Positions 54,282 to 64,000 of a DNA stretch of 64,000 bases are shown here, one piece after another (positions within the stretch are counted from its first letter, which is position 1; each line of letters opens with the position of its first letter). Position numbers and translations under genes: made by a program. Under the pieces are notes generated by a model. It saw only the letters and a program-made list of their open reading frames with translations, was not told the origin of the DNA and did not search any database. The DNA comes from Pseudarthrobacter psychrotolerans (GTDB taxonomy: Bacteria > Actinomycetota > Actinomycetes > Actinomycetales > Micrococcaceae), in NCBI RefSeq assembly GCF_009911795.1, contig NZ_CP047898.1, positions 4,092,001 through 4,156,000 of the forward strand, in the 5' to 3' direction.

Positions 54282-56075
54282 TTACTCGCCGGTCAGGGTC
54301 TGGGTGGGCGAGTGCAGCATTTCCAGGGTCTGGCCGTTGCCCAGGTACATGTGGACCCCGCACGGCAGGCACGGGTCGAAGCTGCGGACGGTCCGCATGA
54401 TGTCGATCCCCTTGAAGTGCTCGCGGTCGTTCTCCTCGAAGATCGGCTGGCCCTGCACCGCATCCTCGTAGGGTCCGGAAATCCCGGCCGAGTCCGTGGG
54501 GCTGGCGTTCCAGGGAGTGGGCGGATACGGATGGTAGTTGGCGATCTTGCCGTCCCGGATCACCATGTGGTGCGACAGGACACCGCGGACCGCTTCGGTG
54601 AAGCCACAGCTGATGGCCTCGTCCGGAACCGTAAAGCTCTCCCAGGTCTTGGTCCGGCCGGCCCGGATTTCCTCCAGCGCCTTCTCGGCGAAGTGCAGCG
54701 CCGCCGCGGCCGCGTAGGCCTGGAAGTAGGTGCGGGCCCTGTTGCGTTCCAGCGTGTTGCTCCACTGCGGGATGTTCCATTCGAAGGAAACGGGACCCTT
54801 CAGGGCAGTCTTGGGGAGGTTGATCTGCACGCTGCTGCCGGTTGCCTTGATATAGCCGATGTCCACCAGTCCGGCCAGCGCCGTGGCCCAGAGCCGCGCC
54901 AAGGGTCCGCCGCCGGTGTCCAGTGCCAGGTTGTCCTGGCCGTCGAACCAGCGCGGGGACATGACCCAGCTGTACTTCTCTTTGAGGTCCCTCTTCTGTG
55001 GCCTGGGGTTGGTGTGCTGGTTCCAGGGGTGGCGGCGGTCCACCGGGTTGCCCAGGGGATCGTGGGTCACGAACATCTCCTGGTCTTCCCAGTCGTCGTA
55101 GTAGGAGGAGCCCAGCATGATCCGGATGCCCAGGTTGATCCGCACCAGGTCGGTGGTGACGAGTTTGCCGTCCACCACCACGCCCGGGGTGACGAACATC
55201 TTCCGGCCCCATTGGGTCATGTCCTTGTACTCGAAGTTGCAGTAGTCGGGGTCCTGGAGGGAGCCCCAGCAGCCCAGCAGCGTTCGGCGCAGGCCTACCT
55301 GTTCGTAGCCCGGCAGTGCCTCGTAGAAGAAGTCGAAAAGGTCGTCGTGCATGGGGACTACCTTTTTCATGAACTCCACGTACCGCATGAGCCGGGTGAT
55401 GTAGTCCGTCATGAGCTGGATGGTGGCCACGGTTCCCACGCCGCCGGGGTAGAGCGTGGACGGGTGCACGTGGCGCCCTTCCATCAGGCAGAACATCTCG
55501 CGGGTGGACCGGCTGACCTGCAGCGCCTCGCGGTAGAACTCCCCGGTGAACGGATTCAGCGAGCGCATGATGTCCGCGATGGTCCGGTAGCCGTGGTCGC
55601 CCTCGTGCGGGGCGCGGGTATTCTCAGCCTTGGCCAGGACGCCGGGGTTGGTCTCGGACACCATCTTTTCGCAGTAGTCCACGCCCACCAGGTTTTCCTG
55701 GAAGATGTTGTGGTCGAACATGTACTCCGCGGCCTCGCCCAGGTTGACGATCCACTCACCGAGGTTCGGCGGCTTCACGCCGTAGGCCATGTTCTGCGCG
55801 TAGCAGGAACAGGTGGCGTGGTTGTCGCCGCAGATCCCGCAGATGCGGCTGGTGATGAAGTGGGCGTCCCGCGGATCCTTGCCCTTCATGAAGATGGAGT
55901 AGCCCCGGAAAATCGAGGAGGTGCTCTTGCACTCCACCACCTGTTTGTTCGCGAAATCGATCTTGGTGTAGATGCCCAGGCTGCCGACAATTCTGGTGAT
56001 GGGATCCCAGGCCATCTCCACCAGGTTGTTGTTGTCCGTCCCGCTCCCGGACGGCATTGGAATCGTTGAGGTCAT
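54282..56075 (-). CDS. hhyL: [NiFe] hydrogenase large subunit, group 1h
   Basis: 597 aa from ATG 56075 with AGGTGAA upstream; a GTG three codons earlier is possible. L1 motif ITSRICGICGDNHATC (Cys79, Cys82) and L2 DPCLPCGVH near the C-terminus hold the Ni-Fe site. Twenty-two residues follow the final His and should be removed by the HupD-like protease. It splits H2 in the cytoplasm. The sequence and gene neighbours indicate the actinobacterial group 1h type, which oxidises atmospheric H2 during starvation. Confidence 0.95.
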   Translation of the reverse strand: MTSTIPMPSGSGTDNNNLVEMAWDPITRIVGSLGIYTKIDFANKQVVECKSTSSIFRGYSIFMKGKDPRDAHFITSRICGICGDNHATCSCYAQNMAYGVKPPNLGEWIVNLGEAAEYMFDHNIFQENLVGVDYCEKMVSETNPGVLAKAENTRAPHEGDHGYRTIADIMRSLNPFTGEFYREALQVSRSTREMFCLMEGRHVHPSTLYPGGVGTVATIQLMTDYITRLMRYVEFMKKVVPMHDDLFDFFYEALPGYEQVGLRRTLLGCWGSLQDPDYCNFEYKDMTQWGRKMFVTPGVVVDGKLVTTDLVRINLGIRIMLGSSYYDDWEDQEMFVTHDPLGNPVDRRHPWNQHTNPRPQKRDLKEKYSWVMSPRWFDGQDNLALDTGGGPLARLWATALAGLVDIGYIKATGSSVQINLPKTALKGPVSFEWNIPQWSNTLERNRARTYFQAYAAAAALHFAEKALEEIRAGRTKTWESFTVPDEAISCGFTEAVRGVLSHHMVIRDGKIANYHPYPPTPWNASPTDSAGISGPYEDAVQGQPIFEENDREHFKGIDIMRTVRSFDPCLPCGVHMYLGNGQTLEMLHSPTQTLTGE

Positions 56076-56102
56076 GTTCTTCACCTGTCTGGAATGGGAT
56101 GG

Positions 56103-57161
56103 TTACCAGGTGCGCTGGGCGCCGGTAAGGAGCTCGCGTCCGGGCCGGCGCCACTTGGGCTCCTGGTCCAGCGTGTGGGTGGTGATGCCGCGCAACGCCC
56201 TGATGGCGGCCCCGTACGGGCGGATGGTGCTCGTGGAGAGCTTGCCGCCGGGTGGCTCGTCCATAAACGGCATGAACTTGTCCGGGAAGCCCGGCATGGT
56301 GCAGCCGATGCAGATGCCGCCCACGTTGGGGCAGCCGCCGATCCCGTTCATCCAGCCGCGCTTGGGCACGTTGCACTTGACCACCGGGCCCCAGCAGCCA
56401 AGTTTGACGATGCACTTCGGGGAGCCGTACTCGGTGGCGAAATCGCCCTGCTCGTAGTAGCCTGCCCGGTCACAGCCTTCGTGCACTGTCTTCCCGAACA
56501 GCCAGGTGGGCCGCAGGGCATCATCCAGCGGGATCATGGGGGCCTGTCCGGTGGCCTGGTACAGCAGGTAGGTCATGGTTTCGGAGAGGTTGTCCGGCTG
56601 GATGGGGCACCCGGGGACGCAGACGATCGGGATGCCGGCCTTGGACTTCCAGTCATAGCCGAGGTAGTCCGGGACGCCCATGGCGCCGGTGGGGTTACCC
56701 GCCATGGCATGGATGCCGCCGTACGTTGCGCAAGTGCCTGCGGCGATGATGGCCGTGGCTTTGGGTGCCAGGCGGTCCAGCCACTCGCTGGTGGTGATCG
56801 GCTGGCCGGTCTCGAGGTCGTTGCCGAACCCGCACCAGTAACCGCCTGGATCGTGGAGCTTCTCGTTGGGGATGGACCCTTCAACCACCAGGACGAACGG
56901 TTCAAGCTCGCCGCGGTCCGCTTTCCGGAACCATTCCAGGAAGTCGTCCGCCCCTTCCTGGGGGCCGCACTCAAAGTCGATCAGGGGCCAGTGCATGGCA
57001 ATCCGGGGCAGTCCGGGCAGTGCGCCGAGCGCGATCTCCTCCACGCTGGGCTGGGTGGCCGCTGTCAGGGCGACGGAATCGCCGTCGCAGCTCAGCCCTG
57101 CGTTGATCCAGAGCACGTGAATCAGGGTTTCTTCGGCTCTGAGGGAAGTTTCGGTAGGCAT
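56103..57161 (-). CDS. hhyS: [NiFe] hydrogenase small subunit, group 1h
   Basis: 352 aa from ATG 57161 with AAAGAGG upstream. There is no Tat signal. The proximal cluster motif reads GLSCDGDS (Cys25, Asp28): Asp replaces the second Cys, as reported for the actinobacterial-type hydrogenase of Ralstonia. Further ligands are in GTCATYGG, CVPGCPIQPDN, EGCDRAGYYEQ and KLGCWGPVVKC, then GGCPNVGGICIGCTMPGFPD. It carries electrons from the Ni-Fe site to a partner. It lies 27 bases before hhyL. Confidence 0.95.
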   Translation of the reverse strand: MPTETSLRAEETLIHVLWINAGLSCDGDSVALTAATQPSVEEIALGALPGLPRIAMHWPLIDFECGPQEGADDFLEWFRKADRGELEPFVLVVEGSIPNEKLHDPGGYWCGFGNDLETGQPITTSEWLDRLAPKATAIIAAGTCATYGGIHAMAGNPTGAMGVPDYLGYDWKSKAGIPIVCVPGCPIQPDNLSETMTYLLYQATGQAPMIPLDDALRPTWLFGKTVHEGCDRAGYYEQGDFATEYGSPKCIVKLGCWGPVVKCNVPKRGWMNGIGGCPNVGGICIGCTMPGFPDKFMPFMDEPPGGKLSTSTIRPYGAAIRALRGITTHTLDQEPKWRRPGRELLTGAQRTW

Positions 57162-57192
57162 CGTTGCCTCTTTCCGCAGCCCGTGAGGGGGC

Positions 57193-58154
57193 TCAGTGTG
57201 CGTCTGTCAGGGACTCTTCCGGAGGCCCTGACAAAGACCCTGCGAGGGTCTCTGTCCGGGAGGGGCGGCCGTCCAGCCAGTCGTACCAGGCGGTAATGCC
57301 GTCGCCAGTAGTGGCCGAGAGGACCAGGAATTGTGCGTGCGCGTTCAGGCGACGGATGCGGCGAACGCATTCGTCGACGTCGAACTCGACGTAGGGGAGC
57401 AGGTCCGACTTGTTGATGATCACCAGGTCAGCTGCCATGAACATGTGCGGGTACTTCTGCGGTTTGTCATCACCTTCCGTCACTGAGACGACTACTACTT
57501 TCGCTGCTTCGCCCAGATCAAACAGCGCGGGGCAAACGAGGTTTCCCACGTTCTCGATAAACACCGTGGAACCCATCGGGGGATCGAGCGCGTCGAGCCC
57601 GCGGCGGAGCATATCGGCGTCCAGGTGGCAGCCCGCTCCTGTGTTGATCTGCACCACGGGTCGGCTGGCTTTGCGGATGCGCTCGGCGTCGAGGGAGGTT
57701 TCCTGGTCCCCTTCAATGACGCCGGCCTGCAGCCGGTCGCCCAGCTCCGTGAGCGTCCGCACCAGGAGCGTGGTCTTGCCGGCGCCGGGGGAGCTCATCA
57801 TGTTCAGGGCCCGGACCTTCCGTCCGGCGAGCCAGCCGCGGTTCCGTTCCGCGAGGAGGTTGTTCTTGGCCAGCAGGTTCTGCTCCAGCGGGATGAGTTC
57901 CGGGGTGTGGGTTTGGGTGTGCATGTGACCGTCGGCATGGGGGTGCGTGAGGTTGTGGTCATGGTCGTGGTCATGCGGGTGGGAGTGCGCGTGGTTGTGG
58001 GAGTGGTCATGGTCGTGAGGGTGGCTGTGCGTGTGCCCGTCGTGCGTGTGCGTGTGTCCAGTTTCGTGGGAATGCTCATGCGCTTGCGCCCCCGGCACTT
58101 CGAGGGAGTACACCCGGGGGCGGCGTCCTCGCCGCAGCCGCACGTTGCGCACAT
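57193..58154 (-). CDS. hypB: Nickel-binding GTPase HypB, likely frameshift at N-terminus
   Basis: The G domain is intact: SSPGAGKTTLL, VIEGDQETSLDA, QINTGAGCHLDADM, FIENVGNLVCPALFD and INKSDLLPY. A His-rich nickel store of about 50 residues (HDHDHSHNHAHSHPH) precedes it. The true start is probably ATG 58154, giving the HypB motif MCATCGCGEDAAP. One extra base in the G-run at plus 58116-58120 is then needed to join RVYSLEVPG. As read, only a non-family start would keep the frame. HypB loads nickel with HypA. Confidence 0.9.
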
Positions 58155-58158
58155 GTCG

Positions 58159-58488
58159 CTACGCCACCTCCACCGAAACGAGGTTGAGTTCCCGCCCGCT
58201 GACCACTGCGACGTCGGCGCTGCCGCAGGGACACAAAAGGAACATGTCCGTCATTGCGAAGTCGGTGCCGCACTCGCGGCAATGCCCACGGGCCTGCGGC
58301 TCGTCGATCTGCAGCCGCGCCCCTGCCAGGGTGGTACCCGCTGAAGCCACATCAAAACAGAAACGGAGGGCGTCCGGAAACACACCTGATAACGGCCCGA
58401 TCCGAAGGTTGACGCCCGTGACTGCCTGGCCGCCGGTCCTGTCCAAAACCGCGGCAATGAGGCTTTGTGCGATCGAGAGTTCGTGCAT
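58159..58488 (-). CDS. hypA: Hydrogenase nickel metallochaperone HypA
   Basis: 109 aa from ATG 58488, with AGGGGGCA upstream. MHELSIAQSL gives the nickel-binding MHE. The zinc site is CRECG and LLCPCGS; the second pair is CxC rather than the common CxxC. It delivers nickel to HhyL with HypB and is the first gene of the operon, 5 bases before the corrected hypB start. Confidence 0.95.
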   Translation of the reverse strand: MHELSIAQSLIAAVLDRTGGQAVTGVNLRIGPLSGVFPDALRFCFDVASAGTTLAGARLQIDEPQARGHCRECGTDFAMTDMFLLCPCGSADVAVVSGRELNLVSVEVA

Positions 58489-58509
58489 GGGTACTGCCCC
58501 CTCTCTGCC

Positions 58510-58538
58510 AAGATAGGCTCGTCGAGGCCATAAATCAA
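58510..58538 (-). promoter_or_regulatory. Promoter of hydrogenase operon
   Basis: On the minus strand, TTGATT (plus 58533-58538) and TATCTT (plus 58510-58515) are 17 bases apart, 22 bases upstream of hypA. No terminator-like stem was noticed before hypC, so one transcript may cover all eleven genes. Confidence 0.55.
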
Positions 58539-58547
58539 CCTCAATAT

Positions 58548-58576
58548 TTGACAGCTGCACACGCATCGGGTAAAGG
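58548..58576 (+). promoter_or_regulatory. Promoter of nickel permease
   Basis: TTGACA (58548-58553), 17 bases, TAAAGG (58571-58576). It is back to back with the hypA promoter, so a single regulator could serve both. No NikR-type inverted repeat is seen. Confidence 0.45.
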
Positions 58577-58627
58577 CGTATAGTCATCCCAGTATTCTGC
58601 AATGACGCGGAAGCCGGAGGCTCAACA

Positions 58628-59839
58628 ATGCAGCAACCGGAAGCGGGAGGCAACACGCCGCCGCAGGCCAGGACCGGACGGTCCAGGAACGCACTGACCG
58701 GCCGGGAACGGGCATCGATCGGTGGAATGGCGGCCGTCGTGTTGCTCCTGCATGCTGTGGGCTGGGGCGTGCTGCTGGCTGTTGTGGCAGCGGAAAACCT
58801 TCCGGCTGGCTCCGCGGGCGTTTTCGGGGTCGGCCTCGGCGTTGCCGCCTACACGCTGGGGCTTCGCCACGCCTTCGACGCGGACCACATCGCCGCCATC
58901 GACAACACCACCCGGAAACTTGCCGGCGACGGGCACCCTGGCCACAAGCAGCCGGGCAACGAGCAGGCCAGCAACGGGCAGCCTGGCAACGGGCGGGCCC
59001 GCGCCGGGCACAGGCCCATGACCGTGGGGTTCTGGTTCTCCCTGGGCCACTCGAGCGTCGTTTTTGGACTGTGTGCCCTTCTGGCGGCCGGAATCCGGAG
59101 CGTGTCGGACCAGGGCGGGGTGGTTTCGGGCGAAACCGAGGCGGGACTGCAGATCTTCGGGACGGCAGTCTCGGGGGTCTTTCTGTACCTCATCGGCGTC
59201 CTGAACCTGGTGATCCTGCTGGAAGTGCTGCGGTCGGCGCGGCGGCTGCGGTCCACGCAGGACAACGGTGCCGGACTGGAAAACCAACCTGCCCCCGGTG
59301 GCCTGATGACGCGGCTCTTCGGCCGGCTGACAGGACTGATCACCAAGCCCCGCCAGATGTATGGCGTGGGACTCGTGTTCGGCTTGGGCTTTGATACCGC
59401 GACGGAGGTGAGTCTCCTGATCCTGGCTGCCGGTGCCGCCGCTTCGGCGCTGCCGTGGTACGCGATCCTCACGTTGCCGGTCCTCTTCGCGGCGGGTATG
59501 AGCCTGCTGGACTCACTCGACGGCTGCTTTATGACGTTCGCCTACCGCTGGGCGCTTTCCCGGCCGGTCCGCAGGATCTACTACAACGTGGTGGTGACCG
59601 GACTGTCCGTGGCCGTGGCGCTGGGCATCGGCTCCGTGCAGCTGATTTCCCTTCTGGTGGACAGCGCCGGGATCCGGTCCGGGCCGCTGGCTGTGATCGG
59701 CGGACTCGACCTGGCCGCCCTCGGATACACAACCGTGGCGCTGTTCATCTTCACCTGGCTCTTTGCCTTGGGCGTGTGGCGTTTCGGCCATATCGAAGAG
59801 CGCTGGTCAGTGTCCGTCCCGGACAGCGGCCCCGAGTAG
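58628..59839 (+). CDS. NiCoT family nickel/cobalt permease
   Basis: 403 aa, about eight helices. The signature RHAFDADHIAAIDNTTRK in helix 2 binds the metal. FWFSLGHSSVVF and GLGFDTATEVSLL are the next family motifs. A loop of about 25 residues rich in Gly, Asn, Gln (GHKQPGNEQASNGQPGNG) is inserted after helix 2 and is encoded by imperfect repeats. It supplies nickel for the hydrogenase encoded opposite. ATG 58628 has GGAGG upstream. Confidence 0.95.
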   Translation: MQQPEAGGNTPPQARTGRSRNALTGRERASIGGMAAVVLLLHAVGWGVLLAVVAAENLPAGSAGVFGVGLGVAAYTLGLRHAFDADHIAAIDNTTRKLAGDGHPGHKQPGNEQASNGQPGNGRARAGHRPMTVGFWFSLGHSSVVFGLCALLAAGIRSVSDQGGVVSGETEAGLQIFGTAVSGVFLYLIGVLNLVILLEVLRSARRLRSTQDNGAGLENQPAPGGLMTRLFGRLTGLITKPRQMYGVGLVFGLGFDTATEVSLLILAAGAAASALPWYAILTLPVLFAAGMSLLDSLDGCFMTFAYRWALSRPVRRIYYNVVVTGLSVAVALGIGSVQLISLLVDSAGIRSGPLAVIGGLDLAALGYTTVALFIFTWLFALGVWRFGHIEERWSVSVPDSGPE

Positions 59840-61701: not shown

Positions 61702-62415
61702 CTAGTGCGGATGGAATGCCGCCACAAGGTCGCTTAGCTGGCTTGAGGGCTGAACGCCTAGTTCGCCTTCCAGCCGGTCGGCAAACATTGTGTAGGCGCG
61801 GACAGCAGCAGCCCTGTTGCCGGCCGCAAGGTGGGCCTGAACCAGCAGGAGATGCGCCGATTCCCTGAGTGGTTCGATGCTCGCCGCGGAGATCGCCGCG
61901 ATGACGGCACTGCCGGGTTCACCCGCGGCCAGTTGCTGCCGGGCAATGAGCTCCAGTGTGCTGAGGCGCATTTGCCGCAACCGTTCCTGTTCGAAAATCA
62001 CCCAGTCGTCATACCACCCGGGCAGAAGCTCGGCCCGGCTCAGGTGGTCCAGGTAGCTGTCCGGAATCTGGGCTTCAGGCTGTGCCTGCATTCTGGCGAC
62101 GTGTCGCTGCAGTGCTGCGACATCCACGCGGACCGACTGGTCCAGCTCCAGCGTGTCTGCCCCGGCCTGGAGGAGGTGCGGGAACGCGTGGGAGATGCAC
62201 CAGACGGTGGTGCGGAGATTCCCTGCAGCTTGGGTTTCGCTGCTCTTCGGCCAGAGCAGCCCGGCCAGGAAACTCCGGTGCCGGCAACCGAGGAGCCCCA
62301 CACAGGCGATGAGCTTCTGTTCACGGCTGGCCACCGTCACTGGATTGTTGCCGCGGCGCAACCGCCAAGCCCCCAGCAAACTCAAGTGCCAATCCTGTGC
62401 GAGAGCCACCGTCAT
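61702..62415 (-). CDS. SARP-type transcriptional activator (wHTH + BTAD)
   Basis: 237 aa from ATG 62415 with AAGGGGATA upstream. An OmpR-like winged helix (LSLLGAWRLRRGNNPVTV to QAAGNLRTTVWCISHAF) is followed by a bacterial transcriptional activation domain (LLPGWYDDWVIFEQERLRQMR, LLLVQAHLAAGNRAAAVRAYTMF, LGVQPSSQLSDLV). This is the build of SARPs such as AfsR-N and DnrI, which switch on secondary-metabolite genes. The nearby RiPP-like genes are possible targets. Confidence 0.85.
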   Translation of the reverse strand: MTVALAQDWHLSLLGAWRLRRGNNPVTVASREQKLIACVGLLGCRHRSFLAGLLWPKSSETQAAGNLRTTVWCISHAFPHLLQAGADTLELDQSVRVDVAALQRHVARMQAQPEAQIPDSYLDHLSRAELLPGWYDDWVIFEQERLRQMRLSTLELIARQQLAAGEPGSAVIAAISAASIEPLRESAHLLLVQAHLAAGNRAAAVRAYTMFADRLEGELGVQPSSQLSDLVAAFHPH

Positions 62416-62626
62416 GCCTATCCCCTTCAAGCGACCGGACAACACGCGATACCCCAGATAACCATCGTGGCACTGCGACGCATCATGTCAAGTCAATTTA
62501 GTAACAGGGGATTTTGGGGGTTTAGATACCGGGAATAAGTCCACATACTGGTCAATCAACTTGGCGCCGGTTGTCATTCAGGAACGTCTCGTCGGAATCA
62601 ACTCAGCCGAAAAGGAATCTGCAGGG

Positions 62627-62830
62627 TCAGGCGCTGGCAGTGGCTTCTGAGGCTTTCAGCAAATCGAGCCAACGCTGCACAGCCAGGATGATTTCGTCGG
62701 CATCACCGGCCGCTTCCACGACTTCCCGCTCCTGGCCCGGATGACTGGAGATCAGGCGTGCCCGAATCCGGTTGTTTTGGGCTGGTTCCGCCCACGCGCG
62801 GATGACCATCGTGCCTTCAATGTCCGCCAT
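62627..62830 (-). CDS. Small conserved protein of unknown function
   Basis: 67 aa from ATG 62830 (MADIEGTMVIRAWAEPAQNN); an ATG at 62881 would add 17 residues. It is a short beta-then-helix protein (ILAVQRWLDLLKASE) with no known domain. It lies between the SARP gene and the peptide genes, with 210 AT-richer bases on each side in which I see no other gene. Confidence 0.55.
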   Translation of the reverse strand: MADIEGTMVIRAWAEPAQNNRIRARLISSHPGQEREVVEAAGDADEIILAVQRWLDLLKASEATASA

Positions 62831-63044
62831 GAGCGGGCGCCCTGCTTTCGTTGTCTGCAATTCGCAATCGTCCCCGAACATTACTGCCCGGTATGACCAT
62901 CCTAGGCATAGATTATTCGGCGCCCAAGTCAAAAGGTGTCACGCCATAGTTTCACGGAACAACGCAAAAATAACACCGCAGTAACGAAGCTGCCACGGGG
63001 TTCCGCGTTGACTGAGCGGGAGACTTCGAAAGGGGGTGATTGAC

Positions 63045-63239
63045 ATGATGAAGGAACTCACAATTCAGGAACTGGAAAGTCAGCAGGTGGAGCTGTTGCC
63101 GTCGCGGGAAACCCTGTTTCTGGACACCAACTGGGCAGGCGTTTACGCGACCAACACCTCTCTCGCACTGAATGCAGGCTCATTGTTCGCAACGGCAAAC
63201 AGCGCCGCCGTTCAAACAATCCTTGTAGCCCAGGGTTAG
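63045..63239 (+). CDS. Candidate RiPP precursor peptide 1
   Basis: 64 aa, with AAAGGGGGTGAT before ATG 63045 (a second ATG follows at 63048). The N-terminal 25 residues look like a leader: IQELESQQVELLPSRETLF. The remaining 38 residues are small and neutral: many Ala, Asn, Ser, Thr and Val, no Cys, ending ILVAQG. It aligns without gaps to precursor 2, 29 of 59 positions identical by my count. A modified, exported peptide is inferred. Confidence 0.75.
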   Translation: MMKELTIQELESQQVELLPSRETLFLDTNWAGVYATNTSLALNAGSLFATANSAAVQTILVAQG

Positions 63240-63263
63240 TACGCCAACTATCCGAAATCTGGA

Positions 63264-63281
63264 CCCCGGGAATGCCCGGGG
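63264..63281 (+). other. Hairpin between the two precursor genes
   Basis: CCCCGGG, loop AATG, CCCGGGG: a perfect 7-base stem right before the ribosome-binding site of precursor 2. It could tune the ratio of the two peptides. Confidence 0.6.
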
Positions 63282-63297
63282 AGAGAGGTGAGGTGCT

Positions 63298-63498
63298 ATG
63301 CCGGCATCAACCGAGCTATCACCGGTGGAACTCGACGCCGAAGTTTTGGAACTGCTACCCATGCGGGAAACGCTGTTCTTCAACATCAACGTCGCTCCCG
63401 TAATCGCTGTGAATCTTTCGATGGCCATTAATGCGGCGTCAATCGGATCCGTTGCGAACTCGGGCGCCTGGCAGAACCTGTTGGTAGTTCAACCGTAG
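63298..63498 (+). CDS. Candidate RiPP precursor peptide 2
   Basis: 66 aa from ATG 63298, with GAGAGAGGTGAGG upstream. The leader AEVLELLPMRETLF shares the LLPxRETLF motif with precursor 1. The core has NLSMAINAASIGSVANSG and ends LLVVQP; it lacks Cys, so lanthionine rings are not expected. Asn, Ala and Ser positions are conserved between the two cores, pointing to a shared helical or modified structure. Confidence 0.75.
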   Translation: MPASTELSPVELDAEVLELLPMRETLFFNINVAPVIAVNLSMAINAASIGSVANSGAWQNLLVVQP

Positions 63499-63605
63499 GC
63501 CTGCAGGATCGCTAACCTGGTGGACATGCTCCAAATGCCGGGGCATGTCCGCCGTACCTGGTGGTTCAGCCTCTTCGTGGTGAAAGTGACAGCTTGGTGG
63601 GGAAA

Positions 63606-64000
63606 GTGACAACAGCACCCAATGCCGCGTTTGTCCGTCGCTGGTCCCCTGCGCCCGGGATTGTTTTCCTGGGCCCGGTTGAAGGCTCGGGTCTTAAGGA
63701 CCGCAGCTACCTGCTGCAGCGCGGAGACGGGCAGATTGTGCAGCTTTCGGCGTTGCTCTATCTGGTGGTGGTCTCCATCTCGGCAGAGAAATCCCTCGAA
63801 GACACGGCGCGTGACATCAGCGACGCGTACGGCCGTGAGCTGGGCGTGACTGGGCTCCTCCACCTCATCGACAGGAGGCTGGCGCCGATGGGCCTGGTCC
63901 GCAACGCCGAGGCCGACGCGGCCGACGCTCCGACCCCGCCGAAGGCAGACCCGTTGCTGGCGCTGCGGCTGCGGGGAACGCTCGTTCCGGACAATGCAGT
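63606..64000 (+). CDS. Start of M50-like peptide metalloprotease with PqqD-like domain, cut by window end
   Basis: About 131 codons from GTG 63606 (GGGGAAA upstream; GTG 63597 also in frame). Residues about 15-100 (YLLQRGDGQIVQLSALLYLV, LEDTARDISDAYGREL, LIDRRLAPMGLV) have the winged-helix pattern of PqqD-like peptide-recognition domains. The following DPLLALRLRGTLVPDNA resembles the lead-in to the membrane domain of actinobacterial M50 peptide metalloproteases as I remember them. The catalytic HExxH would lie beyond the window, so this call is provisional. Confidence 0.6.
   Translation, partial: MTTAPNAAFVRRWSPAPGIVFLGPVEGSGLKDRSYLLQRGDGQIVQLSALLYLVVVSISAEKSLEDTARDISDAYGRELGVTGLLHLIDRRLAPMGLVRNAEADAADAPTPPKADPLLALRLRGTLVPDNA

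Follow-up and report, generated by a model that had tools for sequence, protein, structure and literature searches.

The window analysed here is a 64,000-nucleotide stretch of the 5.17 Mb genome of Pseudarthrobacter psychrotolerans (G000:C1:4092001-4156000). At its right end lie two adjacent genes for short peptides with a common leader motif, ELLPxRETL, and the beginning of a gene for an M50 protease with additional domains. In our judgement there is an even chance that they encode a leader-guided, untailored secreted-peptide system, the one-repeat cores of which stack into a curli-like fibre. The original prediction, made from the window alone, had placed here the left edge of a cluster for a ribosomally synthesized and post-translationally modified peptide (RiPP), with modification and export genes to follow. 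The genes in question are these:

63045..63239, + strand: precursor peptide, type 1, 64 residues (open reading frame (ORF) list, profile, ratio of non-synonymous to synonymous substitution rates (dN/dS))
63298..63498, + strand: precursor peptide, type 2, 66 residues (ORF list, profile, dN/dS)
63561..64000, + strand, running past the window: 5' part of a gene for a protein with a RiPP recognition element (RRE)-like domain, an M50 protease and a ParA/MinD-like ATPase (putative start codon)

The two peptides are the products of real, conserved genes under purifying selection. In comparisons with eight close relatives, peptide 1 has a dN/dS of 0.10-0.31, peptide 2 one of 0.21-0.47 and the protease one of 0.13-0.21, and chance ORFs are not at issue, since 1303 proteins match the peptide profile at E<=0.01. 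Among the matches listed (120 for the peptides, 120 for the protease), proteins are named hypothetical protein or generic metalloprotease. The leader of peptide 1 ends at about ELLPSRETL, followed by FLDT and the core unit NWAGVYATNTSLALNAGSLFATANSAAVQTILVAQG; that of peptide 2 contains ELLPMRETL, and its core unit is NVAPVIAVNLSMAINAASIGSVANSGAWQNLLVVQP, the boundary between leader and core being putative in both. As predicted, they align without gaps, with 31 identities over 64 columns in the best ungapped alignment (29 of 59 had been counted), and the identities in the core alternate residue by residue.

At this locus the nearest named relatives belong to Pseudarthrobacter and Arthrobacter. 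Seven further M50 homologues, 49-56% identical to the focal one, occur in 149 genomes of the family; LLPxRET peptides accompany six of them by a simple pattern and all seven (L034-L040) by profiles. In a scan of species genomes, for which 80 of 229 encoding loci were kept, profiles detect LLPxRETL peptides near the protease in 58 loci, six of which (L062, L063, L064, L074, L084, L099) come from the source genomes of the search profiles. Among the other 22, a long Ala/Asn-rich protein bearing an LPDKE leader is found in 21, and in 21 a CxxC domain forms part of the protease ORF. A class survey located the peptides in 19 of 296 genomes, our own included, and in 17 of the 19 the M50 gene adjoins them (every one of the 18 others has the protease, 16 of them next to the peptides), so that the co-occurrence of motif peptides with an M50/PqqD-like protein is borne out. 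The non-adjacent cases are G157, where both genes lie near contig ends, and G247, where the peptide match is weak and distant. All groups taken together, 22 of 118 genomes of the class encode the protease at a threshold of E<=1e-40. For one Streptomyces query, 3775 proteases reach E<=1e-30 among 8000 scored candidates, and a Streptomyces griseorubiginosus protein shares 99% identity with the protease of L143.

Among the 135 peptides of the family, 130 carry the leader motif. Their cores are nearly uncharged and rich in A, V, N and S; 102 are devoid of Cys, and a single peptide ends in Thr, the focal ones ending in G and P, in keeping with the view that they belong neither to the Cys-based lanthipeptides nor to the daptides. 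Each peptide was called type 1 or type 2 by the better of two profiles. Exactly one type 2 peptide is present in 56 of the 58 peptide-bearing loci, and up to four type 1 peptides occur where the protease is unfused. A PDB sequence search with the peptides returned nothing convincing. L192 (8249-8479) and L193 (11503-11730) contain precursors that combine this type of leader with different Asn-rich cores, which suggests that cores can be exchanged. In L189 (7306-7488), L190 (7443-7649) and L196 (7758-7883), the precursor trio is preceded by small leaderless ORFs that have a comparable N/V/A/T/Q-rich stretch and may represent another subunit.

Conservation within the core was assessed on 48 non-redundant cores (<70% identity) out of the 135 peptides, 14 of which were dropped for an incomplete unit or as duplicates. 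The consensus consists of a strand a, N-x-A-x-V-x-A-x-N-x-S-x-A-x-N, a short arc and a strand b, A-x-S-x-A-x-Q-x-I-x-V-x-Q. With the arc (positions 7-13) excluded, even strand positions are conserved (0.00-1.57 bits) and odd ones variable (2.00-3.44 bits). Positions 0, 4, 6 and 20 are imposed by the selection pattern itself; without them the means are 0.87 bits for even and 2.81 bits for odd positions, a difference equalled in 0 of 20000 label permutations. Since every second residue is conserved, we read the unit as a pair of beta strands with an arc between them and a buried face, and on these sequence grounds a beta-arch repeat seems to explain the core better than a tailored RiPP would. 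Curlin repeats have been described by the motif N-$-Psi-$-Psi-$-Q, with N, Psi and Q pointing inward (PMC10192328). The second strand of the core reads A-$-S/A-$-A-$-Q, then $-I-$-V-$-Q; motif b fits the curlin pattern except for the first N, and motif a has N as its last residue. No match to the Pfam curlin families at E<=1 was obtained with the two focal peptides, one C protein (see below) or one long precursor.

A secreted CxxC protein, here called C, is encoded in 38 of the 58 loci, on the same strand in 37 and with a median gap of 22 bases; it is absent from all 10 loci closest to the focal one (L052-L061). C has three related repeats, one of which matches the peptide core (P 5e-7, in a single-repeat comparison for which the C segments were picked by hand from the model). 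The AlphaFold2 model of C contains strands with a 33-residue period, and we read the protein as a beta-solenoid on that basis. When the core profile was compared with whole C, the match was weak; a position-specific scan, with shuffles and neighbouring genes as controls, and the single-repeat comparison were clearer. The core profile for the scan was built without 15 of the 135 peptides (out of register or duplicate), and three of the 38 C proteins, shorter than 150 residues, were dropped from it; L106, L110 and L116 were dropped from the whole-C comparison. A PDB sequence search with C yielded nothing convincing. Elsewhere in the focal genome (L153 8758-9597, about 2424757-2425596 of G000:C1), there is a shortened gene, the remnant of a distant M50-CxxC fusion, in which a scrap of the protease precedes the CxxC domain; no long precursor was called next to it.

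For the protease, the prediction of a PqqD-like N-terminal domain in the next gene on the same strand finds backing in both sequence and model. When the alignment of the L052 homologue was divided into seven windows and compared with 24 PqqD domains, the N-terminal window alone matched, across 70 columns (P 0.0012, with an hhalign probability of 19%), the other six windows giving P 0.086 or worse and reversed PqqD 0.058; six of 30 PqqD loci, those with cut flanks, had been dropped. In the L052 model this domain is arranged as strand-strand-strand-helix-helix-helix. Pfam PqqD itself has no match in the protease at E<=1, and a PqqD-like/RRE-like assignment is supported by the alignment and the model. 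Both NF041824 (daptide MpaP) and NF058609 (epipeptide protease) match 35 of 35 homologues, with NF041824 scores of 86.8-112 bits against a cut-off of 300 for the four proteins with scores. A PDB sequence search with the protease retrieved only ParA/MinD-type and related ATPases, and the listed matches from a fold search of its model likewise concern the ATPase domain. This domain is fused to the protease in 39 of the 58 peptide-bearing loci, so that a chance fusion in the focal genome was rejected, and each of these 39 loci encodes a single type 1 and a single type 2 peptide. Eight of 24 fused homologues, those of the focal clade (focal gene L002 5561-8041), have KGGAHKTT as their Walker A motif, and the other 16 have KGGVGKT; ATP use in the focal clade may be altered.

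We propose that type 1 precursors (one or several) and the usually single type 2 precursor, each with an ELLPxRETL leader, would be bound through their leaders by the RRE-like domain of the M50 protein, the intramembrane protease of which would cut the leader and free a core of about 36 residues. Leader-directed cleavage is the best-supported step and is well supported, because the genes are adjacent, the domains are akin to those of MpaP and EpeP, and the leader is conserved. Export is probably coupled to it, by analogy with the epipeptide literature (PMC10885120). Each core would form one beta-arch with its conserved residues facing inward, and cores would stack into a curli-like fibre with type 1 as the major and type 2 as the minor subunit. 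Where present, C, a putative three-repeat solenoid with CxxC in its arcs, might nucleate, cap or anchor the fibre, as suggested by the repeat that it shares with the cores and by the regular strands of its model. The fused MinD-like domain might position the machine; BcsQ and FlhG position other surface structures. It is tempting to go further and to postulate, at somewhat less than even chance, a Gram-positive class of functional amyloids in Micrococcales, Nocardioides, Streptomyces and mycobacterial relatives, in which a RiPP-style leader keeps single-repeat peptides inert, an RRE-guided intramembrane protease frees them at the membrane, and a secreted same-repeat solenoid or an M50-fused ectodomain nucleates.

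Completed from the genome, the M50 gene is an 826-codon ORF that ends at the equivalent of window position 66041. Directly 3' of it lies a macro-domain gene (O-acetyl-ADP-ribose deacetylase family, L002 8072-8602), and beyond that convergent, apparently unrelated genes, one of them pseudouridine-synthase-like as read by eye; no RiPP tailoring gene was recognised downstream of the focal protease gene. Upstream, the window holds two further genes of interest:

61702..62445, - strand: SARP/BTAD-type regulator (Pfam BTAD, 58.6 bits)
62627..62932, - strand: small protein 'S' with a GTMVIRxWxEP motif (candidate starts ATG 62830 or TTG 62932)

The regulator has a homologue in 54 of the 58 loci; S has one in 26 by profile and in 19 by BLAST clustering, with no Pfam/NCBIfam match at E<=1. 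Of 27 gene clusters common to at least six of the 58 loci, all are limited to one local gene order each apart from the protease, the peptides, the regulator, C, S and an ABC ATPase. The ATPase cluster is found in 18 loci (13 of Nocardioides); all 22 of its members lie on the opposite strand, at a median gap of 3.5 kb, and for that reason we do not take it as the peptide exporter. By Pfam, eight shared genes are ABC ATPase, Ig-like, AtuA, mycothiol isomerase-like, TetR, FtsX permease, PadR and one without a name; no radical SAM, YcaO or RiPP-type enzyme is among them, the remaining clusters having been judged by eye. In thirteen further loci the M50 genes have other neighbours and the BTAD profile finds no match. 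Ten of them have the arrangement peptide(s)-protease-C; a contig end truncates one of the rest, and two have no called C. Three of the 13 have oxidoreductase-like genes nearby on the opposite strand, and two have such a gene after C (FAD-binding monooxygenase family, Pfam). No tailoring gene is shared among the 58 loci beyond local synteny, or by more than three of the 13, as judged by eye. The RiPP prediction stands as far as leader-bearing precursors beside an RRE-like domain fused to M50, as in MpaP, are concerned, but the modification and export genes that it expected were not recognised; the edge of a tailored-RiPP cluster was rejected, since no tailoring gene is shared by the loci, as judged partly by eye. 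Two side observations concern other genes. A lipoprotein-like gene directly follows C in three of the 13 loci (L189 10694-11467, L190, L195), without a Pfam match at E<=0.001 in L189. In the window, to judge from motifs, a pair of [NiFe]-hydrogenase large and small subunit genes with hypB- and hypA-like genes (54282-58656, - strand) resembles the high-affinity type.

The main rival to a fibre is a two-peptide bacteriocin, which we consider unlikely, at perhaps one chance in several: the M50 protease would free types 1 and 2 for joint action on competitor membranes, and C would neutralise them or aid export. The strict pairing of one type 1 with one type 2 gene in the 39 ParA-fused loci and the nearly uncharged, A/V/N/S-rich cores would suit such a role, and M50 proteases serve the pathways of epipeptides, which are antimicrobial (PMC10885120), and daptides (PMC10036551). 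However, core conservation has a beta rather than a helical periodicity, no immunity gene was recognised among the shared neighbours, and the one ABC ATPase that is widely shared is encoded on the opposite strand. Moreover, C carries a matching repeat, as co-assembly predicts, and M50 homologues are spread rather widely over the class for a bacteriocin.

Improbable, in our estimate, is a RiPP tailored by unlinked enzymes, such as a daptide-like pathway acting in trans. The RRE-M50 architecture and the leader logic are those of daptides, and an FAD monooxygenase-like gene stands beside C in two of the 13 further loci; against this weigh the near absence of a C-terminal Thr and the lack of a shared tailoring gene in either set of loci. 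We give equally little credit to secreted signalling peptides, released by the protease and controlled or sensed by the SARP-type regulator. S2P-type proteases release signals in other systems, and the regulator is nearly always at hand in the 58 loci; yet the BTAD profile finds no match in the 13 further loci, and the whole 35-residue unit is constrained at every second residue, unlike a short variable pheromone.

A literature search, the coverage of which did not extend to subscription journals, found no description of an LLPxRETL peptide/M50 family in the literature consulted (PMC12710340, PMC10885120, PMC10036551, PMC12670281 and PMC10192328 among it). The peptide family is unnamed, large and widespread in actinobacteria. 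In the literature consulted, RRE-fused M50 proteases finish tailored RiPPs; here the same logic seems to serve untailored peptides with amyloid-repeat-like conservation. If the fibre proposal is correct, RiPP leader chemistry would be linked to extracellular fibres, and research on Streptomyces and Arthrobacter would gain a testable surface system. Genome mining would also call for caution, as an RRE beside short peptides would not necessarily imply a tailored product.

Daptide loci resemble ours in that several short conserved-leader precursors (MpaA) lie beside an RRE fused to a site-2 protease (MpaP), although their leader contains ELExMEAP rather than LLPxRETL (PMC10036551). The invariant C-terminal Thr of daptides occurs here in one peptide of 135, and their decarboxylase, aminotransferase and methyltransferase set is not among the shared neighbours, judged partly by eye; a daptide identity was rejected on this C-terminus and gene content. 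Our protease also differs from MpaP in falling below the NF041824 cut-off and in its frequent fusion to a ParA or CxxC domain. The epipeptide protease YydH/LiaK/EpeP is likewise an M50 enzyme, with a presumed role in cleaving and exporting a ribosomal peptide (PMC10885120). Epipeptides have a radical SAM epimerase, whereas none was recognised among the shared neighbours here, partly by eye; in our system an RRE-like domain is fused to the protease, and the cores differ.

With curli, the peptides appear to share the strand-arc-strand repeat, inward N, A/S/V/I and Q, and related major (CsgA) and minor (CsgB) subunits (PMC10192328), together with a partner protein modelled with regular strand repeats. 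In contrast to curli, each peptide has one repeat, with a longer arc and N...N in motif a. A cytoplasmic leader and a protease, CxxC in the secreted partner, Gram-positive hosts and the lack of a Pfam curlin match set the system further apart. As for the MinD/ParA ATPases FlhG, BcsQ and Soj, their counterpart here is fused to a membrane protease, with an altered Walker A in the focal clade.
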